In this document: positions 38,858-64,000 of the stretch, in pieces
Layout of the letters: every line of letters begins with the position of its first letter
Numbering within the stretch: position 1 is the stretch's first letter
Translations under genes and position numbers: made by a program
The notes under the pieces: generated by a model
Databases searched by the model: none
What the model was told of the DNA's origin: nothing
Seen by the model: the letters and a program-made list of their open reading frames with translations, nothing else
NCBI GenBank assembly: GCA_001247695.2
Contig: LGRX02034574.1
Span: forward strand, 1 to 64,000
Source of the DNA: Cymbomonas tetramitiformis
Taxonomy: Eukaryota > Chlorophyta > Pyramimonadophyceae > Pyramimonadales > Pyramimonadaceae
Direction of reading: 5' to 3'
Length of the DNA stretch: 64,000 nt

Positions 38858-38915
38858 CCGTGTCAGGGCTGAAAACCCCGAAAAGCTGGTCCGTAGACCC
38901 AACGTCCTGACACGG
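38858..38915 (-). other. Structured RNA element in copia-2 3' UTR
   Basis: CCGTGTCAGG (38858-38867) pairs over 10 bp with CCTGACACGG (38906-38915). An inner hairpin GGTC, loop CGTA, GACC lies at 38888-38899. Both stems differ in sequence from copia-1 (7925-7982) yet stay paired, and distances are the same. Confidence 0.7.
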
Positions 38916-39449
38916 GCAGTAATCTGTCCCTGGTGCCACCCTGCTGTCGGGGGAATAGTGATGTGTCATGTCTCTGGAGGTCCACACACCGTGGCTGCAT
39001 GCTATCCGGGGTGCTTCGTCAGGGGTAGGATAAGAAGTGCCGAAGCAGGTCCAGATCCGCCCGTCACCGGAAAGACTTACTGCAGAGGGAGAATGAAGGA
39101 AGAGATCATGACTGACAGCAGCGGTGGCTCTCACGGTCGGAACAGACAGTGTGGTGATCTGTGACCAATGCAGTGCAGCTAATACCTAAATACCATAGAG
39201 TGAGCTCGGTGTAACAATGTATCCATATACACATATGCATTTATGAGTGCCATATCATTTTCTATCTATTACAGTGATTCAGATTCTAAGGAAACAGTAA
39301 CTAACATAAAGTAACCAGCCATAAGTAATTTTGAATATAGGCCAGTACCTGCAAAGCACAGTCAGCTACACAAACAACCCAAAACAGGAAAACAGGAAAA
39401 CAAAGTACTCACAGTCAGGTCATGCTGCTGCTTTCTGAGTACCAGTGAA

Positions 39450-45400: not shown

Positions 45401-46244
45401 CCGACGAGTCTGCTCGGTCCTGCGGAGCATGATCCACAAGAGCCGACCCGTGCGGTGCCTGCTGTGTCCGGCTGGAGTGGTATTGCCTGCAGCATGCGAG
45501 CACCACCGTAGCCGTGGACTGTGCAGAGTGCTGTGACACATCGAGGGATGCATCGTGCTGTGCAGAGGCAGGTGCAGAAGCAGGGATGTCAGGCAGCAAG
45601 TAGGGGGGAGTGGGAAAGGGGTCACAAGCCTTCTGTTCTGTGCCGGTCGGGAACATCCCGAAGTGCACTCTTCCGAGTGACAACGAGACATTTTCGGACT
45701 GTGCACAGAACTTTTGGAATTTGGCTTCCGCATGTTGTTGTAGGCGGTCCCACTCCTGTTGTTGAGCCTCGGAGAGGCCGTCCCAGTCCCCATCGTCGTC
45801 AGACTCATCGGAGTCCCCGTGCTCCTGACTGGCGGAGTGAGAACTCTCCTCACCCTCACTGTCAGAGCACGAGTCCTCCTGGTACCCGACAACTGCTGGG
45901 GTGCCGTGCAACAGACAGAAGGACTCTAGTGCCTGTTCAGACTCCTCGTAGGCAGTCTGAAACTGGGCAGCTAGAATCTCCGTCCGAGCATGCTCCGCAA
46001 GCAGCTTCGGGTCAAGATGGAAAGCATGAGCCGACATCAGCTTCGGGCAGTCGGCAGCCCTGTGCCCCTTTGACCCACAGGTCCAGCATTCCCCTCGGAA
46101 CTGCTGGGTCTGTCGATCAAAGACGACACGGGACTTCCCCTTGCCCTTGCCTTTGCCGGTCTTCTGCTTTCCTTTACCGCCTGTCTTACCACCCTTGCGG
46201 GGAAAGACTCCTGCACGGTAACCAGAGCCAATCCCTTTACAGGG
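39450..46244 (-). CDS. pol: copia-2 pol polyprotein with nucleocapsid knuckle and membrane region
   Basis: The frame is open from 46244 (after TAA at 46245-46247) to 39450. Before the first ATG (46037) it already encodes a Lys/Gly-rich stretch and a CCHC knuckle (CWTCGSKGHRAADC), so entry is by frameshift from gag, not by that ATG. Numbering from it: acidic/Pro-rich region to 440, hydrophobic segment about 446-466, second about 599-622, protease VCDSGATGNITG at 701, integrase His/Cys H1029, H1034, C1071, C1074 and D1104, D1180, E1216 (35 residues between the last two), RT D1680 and YVDD 1768-1771, RNase H D1935, E1979, D2110-2112. No stop interrupts 2,195 codons. Confidence 0.95.
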   Translation of the reverse strand, partial: PCKGIGSGYRAGVFPRKGGKTGGKGKQKTGKGKGKGKSRVVFDRQTQQFRGECWTCGSKGHRAADCPKLMSAHAFHLDPKLLAEHARTEILAAQFQTAYEESEQALESFCLLHGTPAVVGYQEDSCSDSEGEESSHSASQEHGDSDESDDDGDWDGLSEAQQQEWDRLQQHAEAKFQKFCAQSENVSLSLGRVHFGMFPTGTEQKACDPFPTPPYLLPDIPASAPASAQHDASLDVSQHSAQSTATVVLACCRQYHSSRTQQAPHGSALVDHAPQDRADSSVVSAGLFAAQCDSLSPPVHHTHTVPALTETCSLFAGMTVVQDDGEDSDMCPAPAPTEHSSPHYTHSASLLREGSRSSAVPPPASPLSAPGKSLEQVHWERVWEEDYRSPTVCHGNLLPSKSSLGARGVAPLVTPPPPGPPDLLLSDAGSAVSVSPPASEHRVHTGGTDTATNFNSFNLGGRPTEGSLSRSFLQQCPPVPAPVHESLDLASDTHMSDTQAPPPPPRRVGRGGVSIFRCAFMSFALFTCFLASASAEALSAAAPVQGVWYGLTLCQPGGEMGGGQSSTAVSQYSQSVQSVQSVWSGDGGLSDGGLPDGGTGVTFDWSATRQCSSGDGSGYSSGSDWHWQYDSGQHRHYGSPRGSDGSPPDSSAQICLLQALEKRRQRYRAVSALLLTAFLGLVLTCLYQSVYEEFLVEAHFEAGHHLSPISAVCSPVTQTPLYGAMQYVGDTALEMCTWFGLFCAPPSVIFSQDPMIHLYSITSSDTDGIVCDSGATGNITGSRHRITDLDTSRTISFSTVMTGPASRTDGTGTLRLIGRDILTGDIDEYSIPGCHFKHGAKTLLSTRVMLREGFSSPDFISMTYTHLDSGRTYSIIDDGTDYLWAEPESADVSFQAFQGNKKKHRSGDPSDWMWSNSQYSAWATTHGSPTATAELGEPAFDVSMFGDSLPVGEGNNHPALQHYHSQNSIFSVQLTGYYFYANPPFTISILDRLFTKGNADFPLDPHNTVYFWIVPYMPSHRVWHKTCTMEVLHIWPTGTTGLFSYLERHTYTSTHPLTPAGSDGGPGRVFIDGTPFPICIFYRDRHTPIRVSPPLELHDALGHASMTRILRLYDMPGVDLGRPQCSRAALASLTTCSQWCAVCATTGLKQKPAPSRDRLRTSQQQPARKWASDMTGPISPIGYNGHRYRIHFIDISTRYLFVFTVASKADYYVCLLRFIGYTRSLSYGIDELFMSTSTVSDSEMVLRTDCAPEMADAKCRAAYQQHGIIHQTSSPTVHTDNPYAENVTGILSRMIRSILTASGLDLSYWPLAAKHGALLWSITPHKEVVTTPIHTMTGHHFQYRRLRAFGAHCYVVMDSQQRNSRQPGISSKLQNRSWAGRMVGISMGSNAYKILDTSDSTVHLVGKPHWIPTYEHLGRSMSAFPDTMAADREVDATFIRPSPFLETLDCTYAQIIGISSYYCTSDRQSYGCVLLSVPSRDNTWTDVVHYVKSTPDGTHYRHLLVYVAHYRKTVSVNEHYPIWTVVRARESRRHPSYGAVIISTDRGSSTPYGVIFEPTPESTYGWHMDLPATLVSFPSTHAAAFLPFSDDPSRDVRPEYIPQQYTSADSFIRSGPRELVVHMFNISAPQLKPVHGVKQALSTPEAVQWQEAMDAEVAGLAADNKMVPGHLPSGTKGLTTLFVFSRPFKPDPSAPSGTRQIFKTRLCANGKQTYGYLPWETTCTTPQLYAFRLAFIFGSIFSLKMSHFDVSQAFMNAKLDVPVWVSFPGGYTYQGFGGALLHYALYGLKVAGASWQRLVKIFMLSFMFGEVTFRQSSHDDCIYFIYTDLVKAMCVVYVDDFILVASTELEDAFWAAFRARFLAKHLGEVTSVLQMRVRQDQIGIYLCQYRQIKDLVANNNITAHSYRTPMDPKLIIKKPADPDLSLVPSYRSILSSLLWLARGSRPDCYYPVIYLAQFVSCPSEESMKALIRIAQYMDSTAHYSLAFYYPETPVKVITMFCYSDADLARDLENDARSYSGSVIFLAGMILQWHSGRQTITEVSSTGSEYVAASTAAQRLVSLMFMLTEIFGSITHRIDTQQPLDSDLDHAIQYLDRAATDIHFDMPSLQTSSVLRRLLEKQNKPADGLTSVRPNSPTIPDELSTDEITPLRFQNNRNREYISTASAQPRLELPIPLLLDNDACRSIVEHHLLSEKVKHVIIRFHVLRDFVRLNWIRCARVPSARNLADPYTKPVPPVKDMQPYFIQMFQQYMAMGKAQAAVIQK

Positions 46245-47230
46245 TTAGTGCGACGAGGCGGAATGTACTGACGGGAAGAGGTGCGGTCAGGGACTCCCCT
46301 ACGGCCATGTGCACCACGGCTTCCGCCGTGATGCGAACCTGCATCATTGTAGAAAGCAGCCGTTAGTGGGGACTTGAGTTTCGTCCCCGCGTTCCTGTGC
46401 ACTGCCCGTGTCTCACGGAAACAGGTCAGCAAGGAAAGCGAGGAGTCAGCATCGAGCTTCTCCTCTGTGTAGGCATCATGCACCGCCTTATAAAAGACGG
46501 GACAGATCCTACGGAGAAACAGTGCAATCCGTGCTTTCTCGGAGATAGCAACGGTGCACCCAGGACCCAAGTCAGACTCAATGGTGTCCAGAGATGTCTG
46601 GAACACGTCAATGTAGTCCGCTGGATCCTGGCCAGCCCTCAAGTCTACTCTGTCACCAGCGAATAGGAAGTCCGCAGCGCTGAACTCCTCGTGATCGGGC
46701 ACAACGTGCCTCACGAGATGAACAAGTGCGATCTTCCCATCCCCTGGAAAGAGTCTGTCAGCCTTGCGCAGGATACGCAAGGCGTCTCCTGCGCAGAGCG
46801 ACTGGAGCAATTCCAACAGCAGGAGGTTCGCTTTCTGCGGAACCTCCAGACTGTGGTTTTGCAAGTCAAACATCAACGCCATCTTGGGGTGAACGAGTCT
46901 GAGCCTGGAATCGAGTTGCTCAACCAGGATGTCCAAAAGCAAACGAGCATTCTTCTCGTTGCTAGTGAACTTCCAGGTCTTTGCAGACTCTCCAGGCTCG
47001 ACGCATTTCCCTTTGATGACGCTGAGTAATGCATCGAACTCCGCCGGCTTGCGCAATAGCTCCCATGCTAAGTTGTTGCAAACGGATAATTCTGACGTGT
47101 CCGGAGCATCCGCTGGCGTAGGCGTGCCATTTAAAGCACCGAATTTCAGCTGACGTTTCCTCGCCCCTGGGGGGTGTGTCAGCAAACGTCTCGGCAGTAC
47201 CGGCGGTGTGGCGTACGGCGTAGAGGACAT
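46037..47230 (-). CDS. gag: copia-2 gag
   Basis: Frame of 397 codons from ATG 47230, 439 bp inside the 5' LTR. The capsid-like part has ARLLLDILVEQLDSRLRLVH, LLLLELLQSLC and LFPGDGKIALVHLV, homologous to element T gag. The true nucleocapsid (basic stretch and CCHC knuckle) is not in this frame but in the pol frame, overlapping the last 208 nt of gag. The gag frame after about 46205 (PARVVRQAVKES...) is therefore probably the product made when no shift occurs. Confidence 0.85.
   Translation of the reverse strand: MSSTPYATPPVLPRRLLTHPPGARKRQLKFGALNGTPTPADAPDTSELSVCNNLAWELLRKPAEFDALLSVIKGKCVEPGESAKTWKFTSNEKNARLLLDILVEQLDSRLRLVHPKMALMFDLQNHSLEVPQKANLLLLELLQSLCAGDALRILRKADRLFPGDGKIALVHLVRHVVPDHEEFSAADFLFAGDRVDLRAGQDPADYIDVFQTSLDTIESDLGPGCTVAISEKARIALFLRRICPVFYKAVHDAYTEEKLDADSSLSLLTCFRETRAVHRNAGTKLKSPLTAAFYNDAGSHHGGSRGAHGRRGVPDRTSSRQYIPPRRTNPVKGLALVTVQESFPARVVRQAVKESRRPAKARARGSPVSSLIDRPSSSEGNAGPVGQRGTGLPTARS
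46199..46205 (-). promoter_or_regulatory. Candidate -1 ribosomal frameshift site TTTCCCC
   Basis: Read in sense, the gag codons are T TTC CCC, fitting the X XXY YYZ pattern for -1 slippage, and pol is in exactly the -1 frame. The two frames overlap from 46244 to 46037. Downstream is GC-rich (GCAAGGGTGGTAAGACAGG), but I see no obvious pseudoknot. The alternative is loss of one C from a run of five in this copy, or a sequencing error in the run. Confidence 0.5.
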
Positions 47231-47668
47231 GCTAAATCAAGAAGAAAATAACTACAAGCAAGGCAAACACTAGCAATCCCTAACAGGGAATAACAAGTAA
47301 TCAAGCAATCAAAATTCACAACAGGAGCACCAAGAGGGTGCCAAAAAGGGAAGGGGGAAGAAAGCCTGTGATGCAAAAACAACACAGTTAGCAGTCAGTG
47401 GCGATGGCGTGGAGGAGCTTGTCGTTCAGTCCCGCGTTTTTGAAGAGTACTCGCGCGAGATTGCCAGGGTCCCTACGGTTGATCAGGCCGTCCCAGGATT
47501 TTCCTAGCTAATTTAAACGCTGAAACGGAACGTACGATTCCTCTCACTCACCACTACTTGCCTACTTTACTTCCATGATCCCTACTTGGCGCGCCCCCTT
47601 GGCGCTTCCCTAAGCGTTTAGCCGACCATAATCGGCTCCTAGCCTTAGGTCGGTGGTGGGGCCAAACC

Positions 47669-48000
47669 TGCGAGAAGACCCAGTCAGAAAACAGACAGGT
47701 CAAACAGGAAGCACTGCAACGCTCAGGGTTTCGCACTCAGAATCTCTCTCAACATACAGAAGATATAATATATATAGTTCTAGTATGCTGAGTGTGATGC
47801 GAAATGAGCTAGTGTGCTCTGTCTCATGTGACAACCGAACTCGATCAGAGGAGATGACAATCAGGTCAGTGAAGTAGTCAGAGGTGTCGAGCCGTATCGG
47901 TGATGACAGCGGTCAGGTCGAGTCGGTGATGACTGCGGTCATGACGGGTCGGTGATGACAACTCTGATGACTGAGCTCGGACTGAATGTCAACTCCAGCA
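47669..48000 (-). repeat. 5' LTR of copia-2
   Basis: Identical to 38409-38740. The sequence following it in sense (GGTTTGGCCCCACCACCGAC) holds the primer-binding region; TGGCCCCACC could pair with a tRNA 3' end, but I cannot name the tRNA. Confidence 0.95.
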
Positions 48001-48387: not shown

Positions 48388-49131
48388 TGAAAAAGTATGA
48401 AAACAGCAGTAAAATATATCCGTCAAAATTGATATTATAACCACAAAACACGAATTATTGTGTACAAAAGCTGTGAGCAGAACTGTCTTAGCACTCTAGC
48501 ACTGGCACGCGAACAGCCACCTAGTACTTGCGAAGCAAAACAATAATGAGTCCACTAGCCTGACCTCCGGTCAGAGTCTACTTATATCTCAATGCTCTGT
48601 CACATTTCCCAAAACTGTAACGGGTTCTAGCCCTTAAATCTTCATCTGGCCAATGGAAAGTCATTATTCCATGCCAGCTCTAACAATGTTACCGTTTACC
48701 GCATTCTGGCTGACACGTCAGCGGCAAAGGAGTCACTGCCATCTTCATCTTATCATTCCCTGGTCATTCGATAGTGACCATATCTTCTCTGACAAGTCTG
48801 CATCTCACAGATGGTCATCTTCGCAAAGCCTGTCATGCTGTCACCACTGTCATGCGTGTCACCAGCTGAACAAACCCGGCGCGGTACCATGAGAAGCCGG
48901 CGTTTGTTACAGCTGTCGCAACCGCGTGCATATGATGGTACAAACATTCTCGGAATCGAACAAACTTAACACTCGCGACTGGTTATAAGCGTCATTAATA
49001 TTCACTGGTGCCGGTAACTGTTCGAGCAATTCTCAACACAGCATAAGATCGTAGAGCTACAAATTTTTTTAAAATTTTGATATCCTGAGATCGAACGCTG
49101 AACTCTTACATGCAAGCCCAGATTTCCAACA
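48388..49131 (-). repeat. 3' LTR of G2
   Basis: In sense: polypurine tract GATGGGGGA (49140-49132), then TGTTGGAAATCTGGG... to ...CTTTTTCA, 744 bp with TG...CA ends. A GAGATATAAGTAGA motif (TATA-like) is shared with the G1 LTR. The 3' end is taken from the CA that precedes a second LTR start. Confidence 0.8.
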
Positions 49132-49168
49132 TCCCCCATCTGTAGCTGCTGCGTGCAGTAGCACAGAC

Positions 49169-51365
49169 TCAAATATGGGCTTGTTCAGCATACTGGGTCG
49201 TATCACCATCTGCCATGAACTTGCCCAAACTGAAAGTGAACATACCAATGCCTTCACCTTCTCCACCCTGTAACATTCTGGCTCTGACCAGCGGATTCTT
49301 GAACACCAAGACCCACATACACCTGCGGCCAATAGGTCCATGTTCCAGATGCCCAATCACATGCAAGCGTCCTGTCTGACTCAATCGTCTGAAGTACGCA
49401 GCCCTGCTCTCGGTCATGTCTGTCAAGTAATAAGATGGAACGTGGACACATGCCACCACACGACTGGCCATTACTGCCAACGGAAACGCGATATCCAGCG
49501 CTGCGAACCAAGGTGAAGTCACCACTGCGTCACAGACGCCATACTTCTCCTTCCATATGCGATAGTTACCTGGCTGAAGTGCGTCATGCGCCTCAGACCA
49601 ACCCAACTGAGAGTTCCAGTCATTATTCATGAATCTCAACTGCGGCCATTGCTCCACCATCACCTCACTGATGACCCCAGTGCCTGCCCATGGGTCCCAC
49701 ACGCCATCGACGGACTTCCAGTCCACCTCTGTCGCCAAACGCCTCACCTCAGAGGGCACTGTGATAACCAGTTCAAGCCCCCACTGCAGCGCGCTAGCTT
49801 CTCTCACCTGAGCCTTAGTCATGTGTCTCAACTCCCCTCGTCTTTCAACTTCTTCTTCAGCCAACGCAGGCACAAGAGGTGCATCCCTCAGCTGCCTTGC
49901 CATGGCCTTCTGTTCCCGATATTTCTTGCTCAGCACCGTGCGATGCCCCTCATTCCAATGCCCTGGCATGAAGATCTGCACAGCCTCAGAGAGCTTGTCC
50001 TGTCTTCCCCAATCAATCTGATCTGGCATGCCCAAGAACATGTCCTTCTCTTTCAACAGCATCTCCCTTGATGAGATGGCATGCCAAGGCTGAAACTTGT
50101 CTCCCTTCACCACCCGACGGGGACCCACGTCTGCTGGCAACAGGCGCATCTCCGCAGACAGCTTCTCATTCAATTGCTGCTCCTTCATGCCCAGTCTGTC
50201 CTCTAGGGCACCAGAACTCTCGTCTTTCTGGGTCTGCACCTCAGCGTTGGCGGCTTGCATCCCCGTGCCTGAGCACCTGGGACATAGCCACTCGCCTTCT
50301 GGTACTCCATCCAGTGCTGGGGTCAGACACCACAAGTGGTACCCCCTGTTGCATGCGTCGCACAACAGCATCTCTGCTTCCCCATCAGTCTTCCTGCACA
50401 CTTCACATGCTAGGTGCTTGCTGGGAACGGCTGCACTGCAGTCATGCTGGTCCTTCACCTGTAGGTGACATGGCGCGATGCTCTGCACGGTACTCTTCTC
50501 TCTTAACTTGGTGGCGTCCTCAAGCACCACCACGCCATCTCGCTGTATCTTGACCAGCTTCAGAATGGCAGATTTGGTCGCGACTTCCATGCCGCTGCGA
50601 GGCTTCTGCCTGATGTAGACGAAATCGCCCACCTTAAACTGGTGTGGACTAGGCTCATAGCCCCCACCTCTTCTCCCTTCATAATGTAGTGTATCACGAT
50701 GCTGTGCGACCTCCAGGCTGCAACCAGCGTGTACCATCAGTCGCCTCACCACCTGTGCTCTCCGGTGGAGGTCCTTGACTCTGGCATCCTTCTCATCTTC
50801 GACCTCAGCACCAAAATCTATGTTGGGTGCCTGTTTCAAATCAGGCGGCACTACCGCCTCTTGGGCAAACAACATGGTGAACGGCGCCACCCCCGTGGAC
50901 TCCTGGCGTGCTGCATTATAGCTCAGCACTAGTGGCCAGAGCTGCTCAACCCACTCATAATCGAGACCCTTCTCCAAGGCAAGCTTCTTAAAGCAGAACT
51001 TCATAGTGCGTACCACTCGCTCGGTCAGCCCATTGCCTTCTGGTGAGTCTGGCGAGGTGACTCGCCGGTCAATCAGGCAATCTCTGCACAACTGCTTGAA
51101 CTCGCCTTCGAACTCCTTACCTCCATCCACCAAGCATTCTGCTGGCGCACCAAACACAGCCAGGACATGACTGCGAAATGCCGCTGTGATGGTGCTCGCC
51201 TCCTTGTCGGGAATGGGCACGCAGACTATGAACCTGGTGTAGTGCTCGGTCATGATGAGCACTCGGTTGTTGCCAGACTTGGTTTCTCTCCTCGAAGGCC
51301 ATGCCAAATCCAGCGACCAGCGATACATGAACGACACGATCTCGAGGGGGGATAAACATGCCTCC
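49169..51365 (-). CDS. pol: G2 integrase core, PHD finger and SAM-methyltransferase-like domain
   Basis: Residues count from 51337. Integrase: SLDLAWPSR (first Asp, about 8), ECLVDGGKEFEG (about 72), GNGLTERVVRTMK (Glu about 107). GPY/F-like module VGDFVYIRQKPRSGMEV about 239. PHD finger about 310-355: CEVC, then CDACNRGYHLWC, then WLCPRC, a complete C4HC3 set resembling the first PHD of KDM5 demethylases. Then a charged linker, and about 520-690 a Rossmann-type domain: DGVWDPWAGTG (motif I), RFMNNDW, DAVVTSPWF (motif IV-like), CVHVPSYYL. Catalytic PP is replaced by PW, so activity is uncertain. Frame intact to the stop, 38 bp before the LTR. Confidence 0.88.
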
Positions 51366-51386
51366 TCTCCCTACAAATTATTGGCC

Positions 51387-52480
51387 CATTCATCCGTGTG
51401 GATTTGCATATGGACAGCGTATGGATATCGTAAGGACCCATATGGACAACCGTATGGACGGTCTGAGCAGATTTCTGGCGAAACCTTGATGAATATGTAA
51501 GAACCATACGGACGACGCGTAATTGTGGTGTCCATATGAAAATGTCCCATGGACATCGTAAGGATTTCATATGGACACCGTATGGACCACCATATGGACA
51601 CCGTATGGACAGAAAACATGTCCACATGGTGTCCATACGCGTGGACAGAGGCACTAATCACCCGCACGACAGCGCAGGGACACCGTATGGAAACCCGTGT
51701 GGATAGCGTATGGACACCGTAACCGGACGTGCGGACAACGTATGGACAACCGTAAGGACATCGTATGGACAGCGCATGAAAATCGTAATCGCACGTGCGG
51801 ACACCGTATATAATCCCGCAAGGACGGCGTATGGACGGCGTATGGACATCGTAAACGTGCGCGCGGACGGCATATGGACTCCCATAAGGACAACGTATGT
51901 ACGTCGCATGGACATCATAACCAGACGTGCGGACAACGTATGGATAGCCGTAAGGACAGCGTATGGACATCATAATCGCACATGCGGACACCGTATGTAA
52001 TACCGTAAGGACAGCATATGGACGACGCATGGACATCGTAAACGCGCGTGCGGAGGGCATATGGACGCCCATAAAGAAAGCGTATGGACGACGCATGGAC
52101 ATCGTAACCGCACGTGCGGATACCGCAAGGACACCAAGTGGACAGTCGAATATAGATAGTCCAGACGTATGGACACGTGCGTCCGTACGTGTGGACGACG
52201 TCCTTATCCGGATGAACGTCGCTGTCCGTGCGGATGGAAACTTATTTACTTAGTATATTTTACATATCCACGCGTATGGACATCGGTGTCCGTACGTGTG
52301 GATAGCTTGTGATAATACTTATCCATGCGTATGGACGATCCCATCCACACGTATGAACAAGACGTCCGTACGTGTGAACACCGTATGGAAAGACGTAAGA
52401 TTTGTCAGCACGACAGAGCAGGACACTGCAGGACATTCACGAATGGTACACGTATATACAAAATGTTTACAAAATATTGT
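51387..52480. repeat. Left subterminal array of CGTATGGAC motifs
   Basis: More than 30 copies of CGTATGGAC and transition variants (CGTGCGGAC, CGCATGGAC, CGTAAGGAC) occur, mostly in plus orientation at 51.4-52.1 kb. Full palindromes appear toward 52.2-52.4 kb: 52182-52195, 52267-52280, 52289-52302. Long open frames on either strand here are by-products of the repeats. Confidence 0.9.
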
Positions 52481-52491
52481 GCTATTCTAGC

Positions 52492-54767
52492 CTAGCTTCT
52501 CGGCTTCTTTCCTGGCCTCTGGTCTTCTTTGGCAGGTGCAAGTGCATTCTTTTTCTTTTTAAATCTAAGAGGTGACTTTTTGGCAGCCTCGTTCTTGGAA
52601 CCGCCCCCCTCCTTCTTCTCCTCCTCCTCCTCCTCCTCCTTCTTCTCCTCCTCGGACGCCTCCTCATCGTCCACAGCCTCTCCTTCCTCTTCTTCATTAG
52701 CAGCGACAGCCTCATCCTCGACAGCCTCAACAACCGTCCCATCATCATCATCCTCATCATCGTCCGCGTTACCCTTTTCCTCCTCAACATCCGCATCGTG
52801 CATCTCTTCCTTCTGACACCCCCGCACGTCCTGAAACCAGTGACGGCTCGTTCCTCTCGTATGACACTGCAAGTGAATGCAACCTAAGTAAGTGCATTAA
52901 GAGCAAAGACAACAAATGACAAGCTAAATGCAACTAGAACAATACAAGCAAACACACCGTGACGGGGGGATATCCACGGTCCCGTTCCGATACCTCAGCA
53001 GGCTCCAACTTCAGGCCGGCCAGTTTTCTCCCTGTCATCCTCTCGGGATACAGCTTGTCCGTGTTGGCGTGCCTCAAGTAGGCCTTGTGTATCCTGCGTA
53101 CATAAACCACTTGTTAGACGGCGTCCTTACATATGTACACCGCCTTCCACCCGTATGGACGGCACAATAAATGGTGTCCACGCGTATGGACAGCGAAACA
53201 ACACCACGCACACATGTACACATGGACGTTCGCGTAAGTGCAAAAGGTAAAAATGTGAACGTTGCAGGGGAAGGCAGGGAGGGAGGGAGGACTTGCCAGA
53301 TAACATTTTTTCTTACTATAACTGACTGGAGGTTGTGCTCCAGCATCTCCATCGTTTTATTAGCCGTCCCGGTGCGGAGTTGCTCGGCACTCACGAGCTC
53401 ATCCACCATGGACATGTGGTGGGATAACATCCTCTCCACGGGGTAAACGTCCCCCTTCTCTGGGAGGTGCACCACAAACTCCACGTACAGCTCGTAGGTA
53501 TCCCTGGGCAAAAGCATCGGCTTCTCGTTTAAGGATTTCCCCGGCCCGATGGCGGCGACGGTTGCCCGACCGATGACGAGGTTGGAAAGGCCAGTTTTGG
53601 TGGCCTTGCCGGTGTCGTAACCGTCACCGATACGACCCACGTCCGCCTGGGGGGTGGCAAACACGTCAACCTGGTCCCCGACAGCCAAAGGGCCCTCCAG
53701 GTTGGGGGAGTGCTCGTCTGCCTGCGGCGCCGACCCTTCGGAGACCGTCTGTTGGGGCGCTTCCACCTGGACACCGTGGGGACGACGTATGGACTAAGTC
53801 GTTCGTACGGGCGACACACGCGTGGAAACATATAAGAAAAACAGTTAAGAACTGGCGCTCACTAGCCAAAACGTACACCCCTGTGGACAACGTGCAAACT
53901 ACGTGGTTCATAAGCGTGGAAACAATCAAGCGGCACAAGTTGAAAAAGGGTTCACATAACCACGCGCCTGGACACCGTTGGACAGCGAGTGGACACCGCA
54001 GTTTACAGGCGGAAGAGCACAAAAGTTACCTTCGGTTTCTTTTCAGGGGCTTCAGGGGCTTGGGCACCAAGCGCTTTGAAGATCTCAAAGTGCTTGCCTT
54101 CGGTGAGTGGGTTCCCAGCAGCCACTGCCAGAGCCACCTGCAGGCACGCATCTGTCTCCTCCGGGGTCGGCATATCCCTGTGCCCGTACACCTTGTACCC
54201 GGCCGCTGGACCCTTGTACCGGATGTGAAACCCGTCGGGGAAGTCCTGGGTGACCTTAAATTTCCAGCGACCGGGCCCATCCGAGTTATTTTTTAAATAA
54301 CTCAACCGGTTGGTGACGTATGTTTTGACCATGCGCAGGGGCACCTGCGGGTGTCGGGACTGGATATGCTTGGATATCTTGTTGTGCACGGCCACCCCGA
54401 TGACGGCGACCGTCCCAGGGGGCAGCTTGCCTGTTCCATGCCAGTCGTCGGTTATCTCCCGGGCGTCTTCCTTCATGTCGTTTAAAACTTGGGCGCCCGG
54501 GTCCAACACCAACCGCTCTGTATTTGCGGCCTGCGCAGCCTCTGCAGGTTTGGCTGCACCCCCTGCCCCGGCAGCCCCTGCAAACATCAGCATTTGCTGC
54601 TGCATGCTCTGCATTTGCTGCATCATTTGCTGCATCGCGGAGTTTGACCCGGTCGCCTCGACCAAGTTGGTTTGGCGACGGGTCGGTGTCGTGGAAGTGG
54701 GGGCGGGGGGTGGTGATTTTGGTTTCTGTGTGCGTTGTCTTCCGGGCTGAACTCGCAATCTGGTCAT
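52492..54767 (-). CDS. Four-exon accessory protein of the CACTA element (tnpA-like position)
   Basis: Exons 54767-54030, 53766-53297, 53093-52958 and 52866-52492 join in frame to about 572 residues. Donors are GTAACT, GCAAGT (a GC-AG intron) and GTGTGT; acceptors end GTCCAG, TACGCAG and TTGCAG. Exon 1 has a Met/Gln run (MQQMMQQMQSMQQQM), then a conserved-looking domain (VAVHNKISKHIQSRHPQVPL...DGFHIRYKGPAAGYKVYGHR). Exons 2-3 are mixed (YELYVEFVVHLPEKGDVYPV; IHKAYLRHANTDKLYPERM). Exon 4 ends with long Glu/Asp and Lys runs (KKSPLRFKKKK). I recognise no family; by location it could be the repeat-binding partner of the transposase. Confidence 0.65.
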
Positions 54768-56120
54768 GTTGGGAACTTACGAAACAAAAAAGCGAGGAGG
54801 TTCGTTTGCTGGAGGACTGTGGGCGTTTGTATTTGGCTTACTTTTGGCGGCGATGGCATGAAAACGGTCTTCACGGGCGTGGACAGCGCTGCCTTCGTGG
54901 CGTTCATCCGTACAGTACGGGCGTCCGAACGTATGACCGTTGAGCTGGTGTATGAGACAGCGTCGTCCATGGGCGATTTTGAACATGCATGTCTCAATTT
55001 CTTTTTTCTTTTTCAAATTGGTATCAGAGTTGAAAAAGGGTTCACATAACCACGCGCCTGGACACCGTTGGACAGCGAGTGGACACCGCAGTTTACAGGC
55101 GGAAGAGCACAAAAGTTACCTTCGGTTTCTTTTCAGGGGCTTCAGGGGCTTGGGCACCAAGCGCTTTGAAGATCTCAAAGTGCTTGCCTTCGGTGAGTGG
55201 GTTCCCAGCAGCCACTGCCAGAGCCACCCGCAGGCACGCATCTGTCTCCTCCGGGGTCGGCATATCCCTGTGCCCGTACACCTTGTACCCGGCCGCTGGA
55301 CCCTTGTACCGGATGTGAAACCCGTCGGGGAAGTCCTGGGTGACCTTAAATTTCCAGCGACCGGGCCCATCCGAGTTATTTTTTAAATAACTCAACCGGT
55401 TGGTGACGTATGTTTTGACCATGCGCAGGGGCACCTGCGGGTGTCGGGACTGGATATGCTTGGATATCTTGTTGTGCACGGCCACCCCGATGACGGCGAC
55501 CGTCCCAGGGGGCAGCTTGCCTGTTCCATGCCAGTCGTCGATTATCTCCCGGGCGTCTTCCTTCATGTCGTTTAAAACTTGGGCGCCCGGGTCCAACACC
55601 AACCGCTCTGTATTTGCGGCCTGCGCAGCCTCTGCAGGTTTGGCTGCACCCCCCGCCCCGGCAGCCCCTGCAAACATCAGCATTTGCTGCTGCTTGCTCT
55701 GCATTTGCTGCATCATTTGCTGCATCGCGGAGTTTGACCCGGTCGCCTCGACCAAGTTGGTTTGGCGACGGGTCGGTGTCGTGGAAGTGGGGGCGGGGGG
55801 TGGTGATTTTGGTTTCTGTGTGCGTTGTCTTCCGGGCTGAACTCGCAATCTGGTCATGTTGGGAACTTACGAAACAAAAAAGCGAGGAGGTTCGTTTGCT
55901 GGAGGACTGTGGGCGTTTGTATTTGGCTTACTTTTGGCGGCGATGGCATGAAAACGGTCTTCACGGGCGTGGACAGCGCTGCCTTCGTGGCGTTCATCCG
56001 TACAGTACGGGCGTCCGAACGTATGACCGTTGAGCTGGTGTATGAGACAGCGTCGTCCATGGGCGATTTTGAACATGCATGTCTCAATTTCTTTTTTCTT
56101 TTTCAAATTGGTATCAGAGT
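53938..56120. repeat. 1,090-bp tandem duplication containing exon 1
   Basis: 53938-55027 and 55028-56117 differ at about four positions (over 99% identity). The unit runs from inside intron 1, through exon 1, to upstream sequence ending TTGGTATCAGAGT. The second exon 1 copy (55857-55120) keeps an open frame; three of the four differences change an amino acid (Q/R, T/I, M/K). Confidence 0.95.
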
Positions 56121-56186
56121 CCTCTCTGTAGGGAAACGCGGTTTTATGAATATAAGTTTTGCCGTGCAGCGGGTTTCCATCATCGT

Positions 56187-56268
56187 GGGTGCTTGGCCGA
56201 GTGGTCAAATGTTGGTAAGCCGAACGCGTTACGCGCGAGGGTGAGGGGTTCGAATCCCCTTGGAGGTC
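56187..56268 (+). tRNA. tRNA-like sequence (Leu/Ser class), probably a pseudo-tRNA
   Basis: A-box TGGCCGAGTGG (56194-56204) and B-box GGTTCGAATCC (56247-56257) are perfect, with a T stem AGGGG/CCCCT and a long variable region as in tRNA-Leu or -Ser. The 5' GGGTGCT does not pair with the 3' TGGAGGT, and the anticodon stem is poor, so a working tRNA is unlikely. It could serve as an internal RNA polymerase III promoter. Confidence 0.55.
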
Positions 56269-56474
56269 CTTCTTCGGCTGTACGTGTGCCCACCGTGTGG
56301 ACACCCCACGGACAGCTCGTGGATTTTTAGCTTACATTATGTGTTAAAGAACACCCTGTTCGGGCTAGTGGATACCGGCGTCCATACGCGTGGACGACGG
56401 AACCATATGTCATCCGTACGCGTGATTCACCGTCTAAGCGTGTTGTGTTGATTTTCTCCGCCGGCATTGAGCAG

Positions 56475-59095
56475 GTGAATCAATTCCTCTTCGCACCAAC
56501 AGCGAAGTCCGCGAAACCCAACAGCTCCACGCCAAGATGATCAGAGAGGGACGAGTGCCTAAATCAATCATCGAGGAATTCATGAAGCAGAGCGGGGTCA
56601 AGGAACCATGCCCGATGTCAATCATTCCTGATTTTGACGTTGTAAAAGACTACCTTCTCGACTTGATGCACATCTTGTACAACCTGATTCACGGCGTCCA
56701 CTGCGTGATTTTTGGTGATGGTTGGGGACCGAACACACGCAACTATGCGCGAAAGATGAAGGTCCATCGATCGTGGGTTATCGCACCCCCACCCAGAAAT
56801 GTAAACGATCGAAGATCTGCTGCGAAGCGACTGGCAGGTAAGCTGGTAGGTCGTTTGCGAGTTTCTGCTGTTCCATACGGGTGGACACCTTGTTCCGTCC
56901 GGACGGACGTCCTATGCCACCGTTCGGACGACGTATGGACCCTCCACTGTATGCCTAACAATGTAAATTCTTCGCAGACAAACCATCACCGTGGGGACTG
57001 TCACCGATCGCAAAGACCGGTGCAATCAAGTGGGTACGAAGTTTGAAGCTCCCGACAAATATGGGACCTCTACCTAAGAAACTTTTGCAGGAGAAGTACA
57101 AAAGCCCGAATAAGGTGCGGAAGATGAAGGCCGCGGAGCTGGTGGTATCCCTCACTTCTGGGATACTGGGCGTTATTGCATCCTGGCAAAATGCTGACGG
57201 GCAAGTTCTCCGTCCACAATACGCGAAGTTCGTCGGCGAATTTGCGGTGGTGGTTCGAGAATTAACCGCCCCCTCAATTGATCCAGAGGTACGTTAATTA
57301 GCCTAATCCACGTGTGCTTCGGTGTGGACACCGTACGGACGCCGCACGGACGACGTATGAAGTCGTTGTCCATCCGGGTGTTCCTCCAGTATTCACACCT
57401 GTCATGTCCCGGTTCGAGATTAAGGTTGCCTCTCATTTTGCCTTTCAGGAAATGAACAAGCTGCAGAGCCGAGTCATGAAGTTGAGAGATGAGATGGAGC
57501 GGAACAACTCCCCTGAGGCGTTGGTGATTATGTCGCATCTTCTCGTGCACATTGTCGACCAGCTGAAGGACAACGGCCCTGCACGGGAAATCTGGATGTA
57601 TGTCTTCGAAGACTATTTCGGGTTGTTGAAGCTGTCCATCAAGACCCGCTCACAACCAGTCGCCAGCATGATGAAAGGATTGGAGTTGCGGCGAACGGTT
57701 TCCATGGTTGCGGGCATCAAGCAGATGCATCGAATTGGTCGAGCTCCGCATTATCGACCTCCTGCAAAGCAGAACATCTTTACAACAAAATCAAGCACTG
57801 TGCGGCCATCCGCTGGTGAGCACATCCATAAGTATTATGTGTACCATGCATGTCAGTCTGTCCATGCGTGTGGATGCTTTGTAAGTACGTTTGCACGTAG
57901 TTGTTCACACGCGTGGACAACGATCCATACGCACGGACAGTACTTTACTATTGTCCGTTTGATCAATAGCACTTGTCCAAGCGCGTGGACGAAGGGCCTT
58001 CCGTGCGGACGACGCCGCCCACACGTGTGGAATACCTGTCCGTACGCACGGATAGGTTTTCACTATTGTCCGTTTTTTCTCTCTTCAGTCTTCTTGTGAG
58101 ACAACTAATTCACTTGCGCGGCGTCAATCGCAACAGATGACAGGGAAAAGATTCAAGTTTATCTTCGTACCGAGTTCCCCGAGTACGACATTCTGTGCAA
58201 AAATTTCGACGACAGACTCGCCTTATTCAACAGGTACCAACTCATATGCGTGTCTGTAAATTGTGCAAATGCCATGTGGATGGCGTATGGACGGCGTACG
58301 GCCACCGTATGACAACGTACGGAACACTGAGTCCACCCGTGTGTACCTTGTGAATGCAGGAACGCTCTGCAACGGAATCGTCGCAACCGACGGGCGGGTC
58401 GTCGAAGGCCGATGACGAATGACGTGGTTCCGGTGTTTCTACAACCAGACACGTGGCGGAGGTGCCCAACAACTTTGCAGATTCAGCCTTTCACCGAGGA
58501 GGAGCAGGCCTTCGCCTTAGCCGGCATCGCCCCGTGGACGGAGTATCCTAGCATCAAGATCGGGCGTGAAGATTTCCGAGTGCACGACAGCGACATTGGT
58601 TTGAAGAGCTGTCAACGGTATTTCAAGAGCATCTTTCGAACTCCGGGAGTGCCAACTCAAGCCCAACTTCTTACAGGCGAGATACCGGACGATGACGTTG
58701 AAGATAGGTATGGGGAAATCATGAAGATTGTCAAGCTTGACCTTCCCGGTCACGAGATCTTTCTGTTGAAGGCCCGTTGGTACCCAAAGGCGGCTGCGCT
58801 TGCGGACGACATCAGCAAGAACATTTACCTGCGCAAAGACATGCCATGGGACGTGTCTCAGCCATTCGTTCGCGCAAACAGCATTGAGAATCAAGTGGTA
58901 ATTCAGGATGTTCCTTTCATGCCGGCTTGGCTTGCCCGGTTCAAAGGAAATGCTGTCCCTTTGGCCATTCGACGACGAACTGATTGCTTGCAAGTTGTGT
59001 TGGATCGCAAGGCGGATTTCTTCCGTGAACTCGATGGTAACAGTAGTAGCGAGGATGACAGTAGTAGCTCATCTGATTCAGATGATTGCGGATGA
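56475..59095 (+). CDS. CACTA tnp2-type transposase, central and C-terminal exons
   Basis: Exons 56475-56837, 56978-57288, 57449-57815, 58137-58233 and 58360-59095 join with matching phases at every junction to about 623 residues (donors GTAAGC, GTACGT, GTGAGC, GTACCA; acceptors CGCAG, TTCAG, AACAG, TGCAG). Exon 1 has DYLLDLMHILYNLIHGVHCV, matching the tnp2 L D.MH..KN motif. Exon 3 has LVIMSHLLVHIVDQLKDNGP and WMYVFEDYFGLLKLSIKTRS, the DUF4218 signature. Exon 5 has YGEIMKIVKLDLPG...LKARWY, DUF4216-like, and a Ser/Asp tail. Usual tnp2 proteins are 300-400 residues longer at the N-terminus, which is not found upstream. Confidence 0.82.
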
Positions 59096-59099
59096 TACA

Positions 59100-60216
59100 C
59101 GATGTAATATATATGTAAATAAACCGTATGTAGGCGGATACCTGTATTCACACGCATGATTCCGCTAATCCATGCGGGTAAACTCTTATCCACACGCGCG
59201 GATGTATGTGTCCACACGCGTGTTTCAACAAACTCCAATTTCGACGTCCATACGTATGGATTGGCGAATTCCGATCGTCCATACGTCTGTCCACACGGCG
59301 TCCGTACGCATGGGTTCGATCGGTGACACGCCTCCATGGTGCCCACATGGCTGATGAAGGGGCAGGAAATGCTCGGGCACACCCAGGCCCGGGTGCAATG
59401 GCTGTCCACACGTGCGGACAAGCGCAAACGAGTGGCGCAGCACGGGTCTCACACTGTCCATACGTCCGTCCACACGTCGTCCGTACGCGTCCGTACGGTC
59501 CAGGGACACGTCCCCATGGTGCCCATGTGGCTGATGAAGGGGCAGGAAATGCTCGGGTACACCCAGGCCCGGGTGCAATGGCTGTCCACACGTGCGGACA
59601 AGCACAAAAGAGTGGCACGGCACGGGCCTCACACTGTCCATACGCCCGTCCACACGTCGTCCGTACGCATGGGTTCGTCCAGGGACACGTCCACATGGTG
59701 TCCATATGGCTGAGGAAGGGGCAAGCAGTGCTCGGGTACACCCAGGCCCGGGTGCAATGGCTGTCCACACGTGCGGACAAGCGCAAAAGACTGGCACGGC
59801 ACGGGCCTCACACTGTCCATACGCCCGTCCACACGTCGTCCGTACGCGTCGGTACCGTCCAGGGACACGTCCCCATGGTGTCCATATGGCTGAGGAGGGG
59901 TAGAAGCGGCATTCCTCGCTGTCCGCACGTGTGGACAGCAATTTCCAACGGTTCATGCGTATGGACGGCACCTATCCATACGGTCGGGCAGTGTACGGAG
60001 CGTCCACACGCGTAATAAAATCAGGTAAACTAGCATACGTCGTCCACACGGGAGCACACGTATGGACGACGTGTGGATTTATCGTATGGACACCGTATGA
60101 ACATCACTTTTGCAAATTAGACATTTTCACACGTGTGGATTTTGCAAAAAAGGCGTCCATACGGCGTCCATCTGCGATCCACGCGTCGTTCATCTGAATT
60201 TCCACGCGTGTGGACA
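59100..60216. repeat. Right subterminal array with 180-bp tandem units
   Basis: TCCRYRCGYRYGGA palindromes recur, e.g. 59247-59260 and 60201-60214 (the latter 2 bp from the inverted repeat). From about 59300 to 59900 a unit of about 180 bp (GTGCCCA.ATGGCTGATGAAGG, GGGTGCAATGGCTGTCCACA, CACGGGCCTCACACTGTCCA) repeats 3.3 times. Long open frames here come from this periodicity. Confidence 0.9.
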
Positions 60217-60234
60217 GGCCAATAATTTGTAGGG

Positions 60235-61730
60235 TCTCTCGCATAATGAGTCTTCACACGCTGACAGGTCTCACACTGAGTGACCACAGCCTCCACGTCT
60301 TTCTTCAAATCGGCCCACCAATGGCGCTGCCACAAAAGATGCTGCGTCCGTCTTATGCCCCAATGTCCAGTTCTGGAGTGGTATTCCTTAACCAACGCGA
60401 GACGGTCAGCAGGCTTAGGTATTCTCACCTCCTTGCCCGACATAGTGACCATGTAGATCTCGTCCGTAGCCTCATCCCATCGATGTCGTGCTGCTCGTCT
60501 CCTTACTCGACGAACTTCCTCTTCTGGCAACCTCACTCTACCATTGGACTTCAACCATCTGAGGCACCATGCATCATCGTGTACATCTCGATGCTTGTCA
60601 CGGTCTACCTGCTGCTCAGCCACGCTGGCCATCAGGTCCTCGAATCTGGTGGTGCACGCCAACCTGGGGAGTCTCATCTCTGAATCTTTGGCAGGCGGAC
60701 TCCAGGCAGGCACATCCACGCGCGCTGCTGGGGTTGCGCCCTCCTTCACGAAGTGGTTCTCATGCCTCTGACGATACTGCGCCATGGTGTAGAGCTGCCA
60801 CTCTTTCTTCTTCTTCTTCTTGGTTCCAGCCTTCTGTCGCTGGGCTCCAATTCCTTCTGCGCCTTTCTGCCCTTGCGAGCACATTACCCGCAGCTTCTCC
60901 TCCCAGTCACGATGGGTCATAGTCTTCGCCACCTGCTGGGTATATGCATTCGAATTCTCAACCCATTCCGCCAGCAAAGCTTGCCTCTGCTGAAGGTCCG
61001 ACCTCTCGTGGTCTGCCCAGTTGTTGTCTACAGCGATGGGCTGTCCTGGGGAATTCTCTGCCTCTGGGGATTCCTCGCTGTGAGGGAGCCCCTTCCTGCT
61101 CGCTTCTGCGACCGCCATCAGCAGCTCCATTGCCCTGCGATCCATGGCCAGGCCCAGAATGCTTGCCAATTCTACGTCGTTCAGGCCATCGGCCATGCGT
61201 AGCTCACTTGCGCTGTAGCCCATGGCTCGCGCCTTCTCGTCGAGGTTCACTTCTCGAGATTCTTCCTCGGCGTCTTCATCGTCCTGGTTGCGCACCACGG
61301 TGCCCATTCTCGCTCTCTTGAACGCTCTTGACCCTTGCGTCGCCATGATGGTGGGAAGTGCCCTCAATGGTTCTCCCACCACGTTCACCACGTAGTGAGG
61401 CGCGCGGTCTGTCCTTATCACTGGCCTGGGATGCCAGCCCTTGCATATGATTGACGATACGATTCGTCCTTCTGGTCTCACCACCTTGCTCATGACGGAG
61501 CGAAACTGGTGGCTCTGGAACAAGTTGCTCCAATACGCTCGCAATCGGTGTGCGTAAGCGCCTGCTTGTGCTGCATCAAAGGACACTGGTCGGCCAATGA
61601 CGCTGGCAATGTACGGGAACACCTCGTCCCTGATCTTGGTTCCAGGTCTGTGTGACAACGGAGAAACGTTTTCCAGGATATAGCCTGGAGGCCTCTGCTG
61701 CTGCAGCTGCTGGAGTGTGGACAGAAGCCT
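60235..61730 (-). pseudogene. pol: G2 DNMT C-terminal half, linker and integrase zinc domain
   Basis: Continues the DNMT after the frameshift: LENVSPLSHRPGTKIRDEVF, FDAAQAGAYAHRLRAYWSNL, then MGYSASELRMADGLNDVELA and GLAMDRRAMELLMAVAEA. A Lys-rich linker leads to the zinc domain (YHSRTGHWGIRRTQHL, CETCQRVKTHYAR), cut by the CACTA element. It lacks the hAT MITE found in G1 and gives its empty site. Confidence 0.85.
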
Positions 61731-64000
61731 GAGAGACCACTTCATAAAATAATTTGCTGTGCCTGCCATCCAGGCCTGTGAGTGTTCCAGCAGGGGAGAG
61801 ATCCTGGCATGGGAACCCACATACCATGACCCACTGGCGTCCTTGAAGAGCTCCTGCTCGTATAAAGTCGGCACTGGTGGTGTCGCGCAGATCTTGGGGT
61901 AGAGCCCCAAACTCTATTGCACGGGGCGAAATGAGGTCAGGATATCGTCTTAGCAACGCCGTGCACCTGGCCCTGGCAACTGTTCGACTGCTCGGGGATA
62001 TGTCCTGATACAGGTAGCGATCCACCTTCATCCCACTGCGGAGCAACATCTCTAGCCCAGCACAGAGGCCTCCACATGGCTCGTAGCACACCACGCCTTC
62101 TTCCCGAGCTTGCGAGAAGAACCGCCTGCCCAGCACCCTGGTGTCCACCTTCTCAGGCTTCGAGATGCGCTCGCCTTCAAAGTACTCATTGCTGTACACA
62201 GCAGGGCTTCCCTCGCCGTGCGTGCCTCGCGTAGGCCTGACCAGGCTCAACGCCTTCCAAGCTGCTCTGGCTAGCCTTCCAGAGTCGGTCACCAGCTCAG
62301 GTAAGTCAGTGTCAAACATGTCCCCATGATTGCATTCTAATTCCTCGCGGTAGTGCAAGTCGAACAAACGATGCACTGGTCCCGTGCTCAGCTGCTCCAT
62401 GGCAGCCATCCTGCAGTAGTTGGCAACCTGCACCTCTGGCGTGGCCTCTTCCCCTGGGAAAGCATCCCCAGCCAACATAAAGCACAAGTGGTCACAGAAG
62501 TCCTTCGTGTGAACTTCCCCCACGCCTGCGTGTAACGCAGTCACCTTCTCCCTCTCATGCCTCGCTCCAGTCTCATCTGTCGTGGACGGCAGTGGGTAGC
62601 GAGACGGCACGTCAGCGTTGCTGTTCTTGGCACCTGGACGATACTTCACAGTGAAGTCGAACTCCTGCAAACTGATTGCCCAGCGTAGGTGTTGCCCTTG
62701 GAGATCGGCCTTCTCCATCAGGGTGGTGAGCGGTGAGTGGTCGGTCACCAAAGTGAAGTGAACTCCATGCAAGTACTGCCTCAGTGTGCGCACTGCCCAT
62801 ACCACTGCGAGCATCTCCCCCTTGAAGCTGGCGTACTGTCTCTCCGTTTTACTCAGGGATCGGCTGATTGCCATACAAATGTACTTCTTCCCATCATCGT
62901 CCTTCTGGCCCAGCACTGCGCCAATGCCATAGGTGCTCCAATCGGTGTACAATATGAGGGGTCTGTCATAATCGATAGGCCTCAGGCACCTCCCAGAACA
63001 GAGAGCATCCTTCAGTTCTTGAAGTGCTCGATCTTGCTCCTTCCCCCAGGCTCCCTTGATGTCAGTGACCTCCTTTTTGAGCAGGTCATTGAGAGGGCGG
63101 GCCATCTCAGAGTAGTTTGGCCCCCCTGGCTCACCCACCAAGCCCTTGTAGTAGTTCATCATGCCCAAGATCGAGCGGAGCCCAGTCTTGTCCTGTGGGC
63201 TTGGAAGCTCCTGGATGGCCTTGCATTTAGCTTCTTGCGCGCCAATGGAGTTGTGACCAATGCGATAGCCCAGAAAGTCCACCGTGGCTGCACCAAAGGT
63301 ACTCTTGCCTGCATGCAAACGGATGCCAGCGTCCCCCAAGGTGCGAAGCACGTCCTCAACGTCCTTCAAATGCTGCTCAGGCGTGGAATCCGTGTAGACC
63401 ACTACGTCGTCGACGTATGCCACCGTGCAATGCTGCAAGTGACGTAACTCGTAGTCCATGATTCTTACGAACGCAGAAGTAGCTCCAGCTGCACCAAAAG
63501 GCATCGAGGTGTACTGGTACAGCTGATTCTTCCACCAAAACGCCGTCTTGCTCCTGTCCTCTTCCGTGGCCATGGGAATCTGGTGGAAGGCTTTGGTGGC
63601 ATCCAGCGTGGTCTTGAACTTAGCCTTCGCCACCTTCTGGTAGAGCTCCTCTGGTCGGTGCGGCAGCGTATTGTCTTTGAGGGAGTGCCGGTTGACACCC
63701 CTGAGGTCCACGCAGAACCTCGTCTGGGTCCACAGGCCAGTCTCGTGATCTTTCTTGCCAGCTACGACCACGTTGCTCGCATGCCTGCAATGTTTGGCTG
63801 CTGGCTCTATGAAGCCATACTCCAAAAGTTCCTTGCAATGAATATATCGATGATTTCCTGCTCGCCCGGACTGTACTTCCTGGGTCTCTGGTAGGCGGCC
63901 TTGGATTCGTCTACAAAAGGAATGGAGAACGTGTTGTGCTCCGCCTTGCCCTTGTAGCCTGTCAGATCGTGAGGACTGCTGGCAAAGGTGGTCTTGCACC
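61731..64000 (-). pseudogene. pol: G2 reverse transcriptase, RNase H and DNMT N-terminal half
   Basis: RT motifs (TRFCVDLRGVNRHS, AYVDDVVVYTD), RNase H (LYTDWSTYGIG, VTDHSPLTTL), linker, then DNMT motif I (VVCYEPCGGLCAGLEMLLRS) and motif IV (GFPCQDLSPAGTLTG). Four extra bases near 61731 after KLFYEVV, relative to G1, shift the frame; two extra near 63842 shift the frame before RT. The first bases of the element lie outside the window. Confidence 0.88.

Follow-up and report, generated by a model that had tools for sequence, protein, structure and literature searches.

Does a single retrotransposon polyprotein join a cytosine methyltransferase, a PHD finger and a second methyltransferase, and what would the element use them for? 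The question is raised by a 64,000-nucleotide stretch of the genome of the green alga Cymbomonas tetramitiformis (contig LGRX02034574.1, positions 1 to 64,000; the window), in which a sequence-only reading had proposed, in two places, reverse transcriptase (RT), RNase H, a C5-cytosine methyltransferase (DNMT), integrase (IN), a PHD finger and a Rossmann domain with DPWAGTG and TSPWF motifs (MT2), in this order within one polyprotein. We assign the two places, G1 and G2, to two copies of one Gypsy-type retrotransposon, both of which are broken. At ten other genomic loci, all picked because long frames were listed there, one open frame of 2170-2445 codons encodes RT-RNase H-DNMT-integrase-PHD-MT2. 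The proposed single polyprotein fails in the window, where G2 is frameshifted and split and G1 is broken, and holds at these ten loci.

The window proteins find their best protein matches among CYMTET_ proteins of C. tetramitiformis. The genome search covered an 851.7-Mb assembly of 25,745 contigs, in which the window is contig C24463; the published long-read assembly of Cymbomonas is described as 914 Mb in 35,945 scaffolds with 68% interspersed repeats. RT, DNMT, integrase, PHD and MT2 motifs are present at 10/10 loci, with one failure in 110 motif checks (an integrase motif in L014). The 722-residue IN-PHD-MT2 part is matched at full length in each of the 62 places scored, a set that counts the window's own place and holds the best of 8014 candidates. 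For the refuting condition set beforehand, that most copies lack a domain, the result within this selection is 62/62 complete IN-PHD-MT2 parts. Matches outside the window's own share 98-99% identity, 58 of the 62 places are free of stops, and frames reach at least 2000 codons at 16 places and are shorter at the other 46. The element family is very abundant, being present in hundreds or more copies.

The ratio of nonsynonymous to synonymous substitution rates (dN/dS) among copies, computed from 10 copies for the first parts and 16 from IN onward (excluding L005, a duplicate of L016, and L006, with one stop), is 0.025 for RT, 0.066 for RNase H, 0.133 for DNMT, 0.049 for integrase, 0.063 for PHD and 0.032 for MT2, the values for IN-PHD-MT2 being biased low because copies were picked by similarity and open frame. 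The comparison of G1 with the intact copy L013 is free of that bias, as G1 was not picked by similarity. At a synonymous divergence (dS) of 0.62-1.25, it yields dN/dS of 0.02 for RT-RNase H, 0.08 for DNMT, 0.02 for IN, 0.05 for PHD (from 43 of its 56 codons) and 0.07 for the 5' part of MT2, which contains two stops in G1. Purifying selection over each domain, which the sequence-only reading had proposed to check by dN/dS, is thus found for every module (0.02-0.13), and the values indicate that all have been constrained since the subfamilies split. The stretch before RT gives 0.405 among copies. The long frames of L009-L018 begin with ~480 codons that carry, ahead of RT, hydrophobic, membrane-like stretches (by eye, in L009), weakly constrained at a dN/dS of 0.41.

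The same architecture extends to other organisms. The DNMT-region search returned at least 58 proteins and the MT2-region search 37, query and Cymbomonas included, the latter with many metagenome proteins and with matches in Tetrabaena socialis, Volvox reticuliferus and one protein labelled Chrzof1, a label that we take to mean Chromochloris zofingiensis. Scanning 155 homologues with our own profiles identified RT-DNMT-IN-PHD-MT2 in 15, RT-DNMT-IN-PHD in 13, DNMT-IN-PHD-MT2 in 7, DNMT-IN-PHD in 17, IN-PHD-MT2 in 18, IN-PHD in 22, PHD-MT2 in 15 and fewer or other subsets in 48, shares that are not frequencies because these domains served as queries and many gene models are truncated. The 15 full-order proteins comprise four from Cymbomonas and otherwise metagenome proteins, several with a partial MT2 or a lost motif. 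Domain order is constant except in P0029, a short gene model, and MT2 follows PHD in the Volvox and Tetrabaena proteins as well. The same order in such distant relatives argues that the combination is no accident. As to the other refuting condition set beforehand, descent of the domain order from one chimeric ancestor, the architecture probably arose once and long ago. The Klebsormidium nitens protein P0073 has the PHD finger and neither methyltransferase, which suggests that PHD may have been acquired before both. Between PHD and MT2, P0099 carries a Tudor-like stretch (PTM_DIR17_Tudor, 1.7e-4, below the cut-off), which text in P0142 resembles by eye.

Nested elements brought together by chance or by an assembly error could also place such domains side by side, and nested insertions do occur in the window. 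This chimera account is refuted by the single frame at ten loci, by the unchanged domain order in proteins from metagenomes and from other algae, and by selection on all modules, and it retains a vanishingly small probability.

Within the window, G1 lies on the plus strand at ~25018-36107 and G2 on the minus strand, from 48164 to beyond the window end; the borders first given to G2, 49169 to 63999, miss this right end and the continuation past the window. The two are ~85% identical, with 14 aligned stretches at 81-90%. Pfam recovered RT, RNase H, DNA_methylase (E 1.7e-5 in G2, 1.1e-9 in G1), H2C2, rve and PHD in the claimed order. The features are as follows, A and B denoting the repeats of the element.

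63259-63687, minus strand: G2 reverse transcriptase (RVT_1, Pfam E 6.6e-23), YVDD motif at 63406-63417
62659-63048, minus strand: G2 RNase H (Pfam RT_RNaseH 2.8e-33, RT_RNaseH_2 1.7e-30)
61086-62153, minus strand: G2 predicted Dnmt3-type cytosine methyltransferase (Pfam DNA_methylase; approximate borders, mapped from L013)
62068-62082, 61795-61818, 61665-61676 and 61530-61553, minus strand: G2 DNMT motifs EPCGG, GFPCQDLS, LENV and AHRLRAYW, respectively
60264-60380, minus strand: G2 integrase HHCC zinc finger (Integrase_H2C2 1e-16, and motif)
51370-60234, no strand: nested insertion inside G2, no part of the element, with terminal inverted repeats CCTACAAATTATTGGCC
51041-51322, minus strand: G2 integrase DDE core (rve 1.4e-7, just below the Pfam cut-off), with LVDGGKEF at 51110-51133 and GNGLTERV at 51014-51037
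50273-50407, minus strand: G2 PHD finger (C4HC3; Pfam PHD 2e-12)
49172-49798, minus strand: G2 second methyltransferase domain MT2, with DPWAGTG (motif I) at 49676-49696 and TSPWF (motif IV) at 49505-49519
48914-49132, minus strand: G2 repeat B1, preceded by the polypurine tract AGATGGGGGA
48388-48911, minus strand: G2 repeat A2, 524 nt, 96% identical to A1 of copy C3466
48164-48387, minus strand: G2 repeat B2, the right end of the element (...GCGACA)
25018-31050, plus strand: G1 5' part, with RT, RNase H, DNMT, IN, frameshifted PHD and the start of MT2 (motif I at 30901-30921)
35077-36107, plus strand: G1 3' part, with the remaining MT2 (TSPWF at 35104-35118), B1 and part of A2

The G2 frame ends at a stop at 49169, is shifted within DNMT near 61730, and is interrupted in the integrase by the nested insertion. 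G1 is truncated, with inserts at 31051-35076 and ~27923-28198, PHD out of frame and two stops in its MT2 part; its 5' part is 85% identical to L013, and it appears to be an older copy from a sister subfamily. The nested insertion has 17-bp terminal inverted repeats, an internal direct repeat of at least 300 bp at 1,090-bp spacing (53938/55028), and tandem repeats of ~180 nt and ~66 nt. A young Copia-type element occupies window positions 38408-47967, its flanking direct repeats being 100% identical over 300 listed bases; its frames encode a 2195-aa Pol (39450-46037, minus strand) and a 397-aa product (46037-47230, minus strand).

In a PDB search, the DNMT of an intact copy reaches DNMT3A at 1.5e-6, and DNMT3A/3B/3C make up 27 of its 43 matches, including all of the best ones. 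With the DNMT3 catalytic domain as best match, motifs I, IV, VI and VIII present, and the motif IV cysteine and the EN of motif VI retained in 20 aligned relatives, the domain is classed as Dnmt3-type and predicted to be a C5-cytosine methyltransferase. Relatives in which ECQ replaces PCQ, with the catalytic cysteine kept, are P0106, P0125, P0133, P0134, P0137, P0145, P0148, P0149, P0152 and P0153, all metagenome proteins save one from Haematococcus. In a test system, a retrotransposon-borne Dnmt3 is described as adding de novo methylation at CG (de Mendoza 2018, PMC5890265), and a survey of green-algal MMETSP transcriptomes is reported to have found no DNMT3 (Hoguin 2023).

A DNMT footprint in CpG substitutions is rejected: transitions at CpG are raised (0.058 per site vs 0.034-0.038 at other C/G sites), transversions likewise (0.012 vs 0.008), and the depletion of CpG extends beyond the element. 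The depletion is similar in and around the element and thus gives no sign of element-specific 5-methylcytosine (5mC). These data bear on self-restraint, by which the element would methylate its own inserted copies, inviting host silencing, doing less harm and being tolerated. Very high copy number fits this account, as does a Cymbomonas scaffold at >10,000x coverage carrying a cytosine methyltransferase, reported with no architecture given, together with normal median transcript levels from repeated scaffolds (Burns 2015). CpG depletion that does not exceed that of the surroundings, and near-identical A1 and A2 repeats that mark a recently active family, oppose it, and we consider self-restraint quite improbable.

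The PHD finger has the C4HC3 zinc ligands and matches solved PHDs including those of CHD4, WSTF, KDM5, BAZ2 and UHRF1; it is a probable histone reader.

MT2, which a profile scan of 158 proteins recovered in 67, complete or partial, is assigned to no curated family and has no Pfam match in the window copy. The sequence-only reading had called it methyltransferase-like, a view borne out by its profile relatives and by a predicted structure (predicted local distance difference test score 84) with a Rossmann methyltransferase fold, whose best matches are the adenine-N6 methyltransferases M.TaqI and METTL5. MethyltransfD12 matches weakly in 11 of 22 MT2 members (best 2.9e-5), and the window member is not one of these 11; PDB sequence searches gave nothing with the window MT2 and weak matches with the profile (best E 0.09), and NCBIfam and PHROGs searches gave weak methyltransferase matches. 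Fold and motif order (I before IV) agree with gamma-type N6-adenine methyltransferases; motif IV departs from (N/D/S)PP(Y/F/W), as Cymbomonas MT2 has SPWF. The predicted fold places MT2 among amino-methyltransferases of the adenine-N6 group, which would probably produce N6-methyladenine (6mA). A viral or prokaryote origin was rejected: two peptide patterns each on IMG/VR and GTDB contigs gave 18 and 33 pattern matches and 0 relatives by tblastn, a scan that distant relatives could escape.

Two alternatives concern what MT2 does. It may no longer be an enzyme, its fold surviving as a module for binding (to DNA or RNA, or as an S-adenosylmethionine sensor) that steers the integrase together with PHD, so that DNMT alone writes. 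The second proline of motif IV is tryptophan in Cymbomonas, lineages including P0144, P0149, P0153 and P0158 have lost motif IV and retained the domain, and no target-recognition domain is present. Against this, many members that share 30-45% identity with the window copy retain motif I and SPWF/SPYF/SPPF, P0142 has (among the rows listed) the canonical TSPPF, and constraint is strong (dN/dS 0.07 for G1 and 0.03 among the copies that were picked by similarity), which leaves the non-enzymatic role doubtful. Alternatively, one or both methyltransferases may act on RNA, MT2 modifying the RNA of the element or of the host in the manner of METTL5 and KsgA and altering stability, packaging or priming. 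M.TaqI and type I DNA methyltransferases match equally well, the position of MT2 after integrase and PHD suggests action on DNA or chromatin, and DNMT is Dnmt3-type; an RNA substrate is therefore judged unlikely.

The ends of the element are unusual for its Pol. Five copies share the layout A1-body-B1-GC-A2-B2, with A of ~524 nt, B of ~212-225 nt, termini TGTAAC...GCGACA and perfect 4-bp target duplications in 5/5 (flanks read by eye). A1 and A2 are 99.4-99.8% identical in the five copies (376 nt only in C774), indicating that insertions are young and the family recently active. RT, RNase H, an H2C2/DDE integrase and a short target duplication agree with Gypsy (Ty3) elements; identical full long terminal repeats (LTRs) at both ends are replaced by split repeats in the five copies, so the element is filed by its Pol, with non-canonical ends. 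DIRS/PAT/Ngaro elements share the split repeats A1...B1 A2 B2 and differ by a tyrosine recombinase and no target duplication, where this element has a DDE integrase and 4-bp duplications.

Traces of replication may point to self-priming. A polypurine tract adjoins B1, and CATTATTGTTTTG in A is the exact complement of CAAAACAATAATG, which spans the A1/body border (13-nt complementarity); TATAAG starts 38 nt upstream of CATTATTGTTTTG. In Tf1-like self-priming, the RNA 5' end is complementary to the primer site. In copy C774 (L025/L012), the break in A1 falls directly behind CATTATTGTTTTG; AAAAAGTATGAA comes next and internal sequence after it, with the gag region deleted; AAAAAGTATGAA equals the predicted self-primed minus-strand extension over 10-12 nt (the last two bases may be internal sequence). 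We read this junction, seen in one copy, as a putative fossil of self-priming. tRNA priming was rejected, as no TGG-type site stands beside A1 (by eye).

Genome-wide, exact A|B junctions number 557 and B-GC-A junctions 1206, with 0 for reversed-pattern controls. Pairing was scored by exact matches on the first-listed contigs (49 of 557 A|B, 100 of 1206 B-GC-A): B-GC-A lies 524 nt upstream of 44 of the 49 A|B sites and ~222 nt downstream of none. As five lack an exact upstream junction, about one in ten junctions appears to be missed. The 0/49 for the opposite permutation rules out a simple 2-LTR circle with random cutting; one permutation dominates, and some asymmetry or a linear route would be needed. 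Outside these contigs, at C2012:2692-4951, four A|B borders ~747 bp apart form a tandem array of the B-GC-A unit, in which B-GC-A would come after A|B, so this order is not absent from the genome. B1 and B2 differ by 0.013 within a copy and B repeats by 0.039-0.050 between copies, so both seem to be renewed each cycle. B2 as a separately inherited lineage is unsupported: among 17 distinct copies tried, with L007 and L008 left out, a B2 has its own B1 nearest or tied in 13 of 15 cases (exceptions L003 and L018), and the B-repeat tree gives exact sister pairs in 7/15 copies, most others falling in unresolved small groups. L018 carries a B2 from another subfamily than its B1.

The best overall explanation, to which we give about an even chance, is a large, recently amplified Gypsy-type family whose Pol took up three chromatin modules, DNMT between RNase H and integrase, PHD after integrase and MT2 at the C-terminus. 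A promoter in repeat A would yield an RNA whose folded 5' end primes reverse transcription at the A/body border; the resulting complementary DNA (cDNA), with an LTR of B-GC-A, would be linked end to end, and its GC-centred inverted repeat B-GC-A would be the site where the integrase acts to give A1-body-B1-GC-A2-B2 with 4-bp target duplications. The genomic copy would then be a circular permutation of the reverse-transcribed form, opened at B-GC-A. The two methyltransferases, in the same particle or nucleus, may mark new cDNA (5mC, probably 6mA) or target chromatin, and PHD may tether the integrase complex to histone H3, any catalytic activity, substrate or benefit being inferred. That the element marks its own copies or hides from silencing, as the sequence-only reading had suggested, is likewise a hypothesis.

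Several observations weigh against this self-primed, chromatin-writing cycle. ECQ replaces PCQ in the DNMT of some relatives, CpG depletion is alike inside the element and in its surroundings, and MT2 has SPWF and no target-recognition domain in Cymbomonas and has lost motif IV in several metagenome lineages. An exact A|B border lies 524 nt on at 44 of 100 B-GC-A sites, the other 56 being unexplained; a symmetric circle cut at either B-GC-A should give two permutations, and one is seen (0/49 for the other). Within copies, B1/B2 show 12 substitutions per ~1080 nt vs 8 A1/A2 differences per ~2470 nt (five copies).

A bolder and rather unlikely extension holds that a DDE-integrase element converged on a DIRS lifestyle, with a joined or circular intermediate integrated at an internal GC-centred site, 5mC and 6mA written by the element itself, and host chromatin read by PHD (and, in relatives, a Tudor-like stretch). 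If true, it would be functional that DNA methyltransferases recur alongside split repeats, in Gypsy as in DIRS elements, methylation protecting or marking the joined or gapped intermediate.

Dnmt3 is known in a Klebsormidium Gypsy and a Symbiodinium DIRS element (de Mendoza 2018, PMC5890265). KnitGypsy-Dnmt3 of K. nitens shares Gypsy domains, a Dnmt3-type DNMT in Pol and DIRS-like repeats, which makes the charophyte comparison proposed for the window fitting; compared by description only, the available text mentions no PHD or MT2, and its adenine-methyltransferase passage concerns DIRS elements. The matches listed for the DNMT region (at least 58) name no K. nitens protein. K. nitens P0073 (RT-RNase H-integrase-PHD), 29% identical to the window protein over half its length, likewise has PHD after integrase, but neither DNMT nor MT2 was found in it. 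SymbioDIRS-Dnmt3 and DIRS-type elements with a Dam-like methyltransferase are also retrotransposons carrying a DNA methyltransferase, and PAT/Ngaro-type members have A1...B1-A2-B2 split repeats like the Cymbomonas element; as described in the source text available, SymbioDIRS-Dnmt3 and the Dam-like DIRS differ in having a tyrosine recombinase instead of a DDE integrase, one methyltransferase and no PHD mentioned. Ectocarpus Gypsy-10_Ec32 (Tudor, termed the first transposable element with a Tudor domain) and Sola1-1_Ec32 (ParB and N4C/N6A methyltransferase) are algal transposons with a chromatin reader or an amino-methyltransferase, but place reader and writer in separate elements, and the text available mentions no DNMT-PHD-MT2 polyprotein (PMC12477816). 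A PHD is described in a Ginger1 transposase, and Arabidopsis EDM2 (PMC7529245), set beside the element by description only, is a host gene, unlike this retrotransposon. The sequence-only reading had called the combination with PHD and a second methyltransferase undescribed, and open-literature searches, whose coverage left out most subscription papers and preprints, found no retrotransposon with DNMT, PHD and a second methyltransferase. A DNMT-bearing, DIRS-ended Gypsy is already known; the added second methyltransferase, assigned to no family, and the reader appear, within those searches, to be new.

The repeat layout ties the Cymbomonas element to Klebsormidium and DIRS elements, some of which also carry methyltransferases, and split-repeat ends on a DDE element bear on whether integration requires linear cDNA. 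The marks that DNA methyltransferases leave usually silence retrotransposons, yet these elements have captured such enzymes again and again; a two-writer, one-reader element, abundant in an alga with a sequenced genome, makes the reason for this testable.

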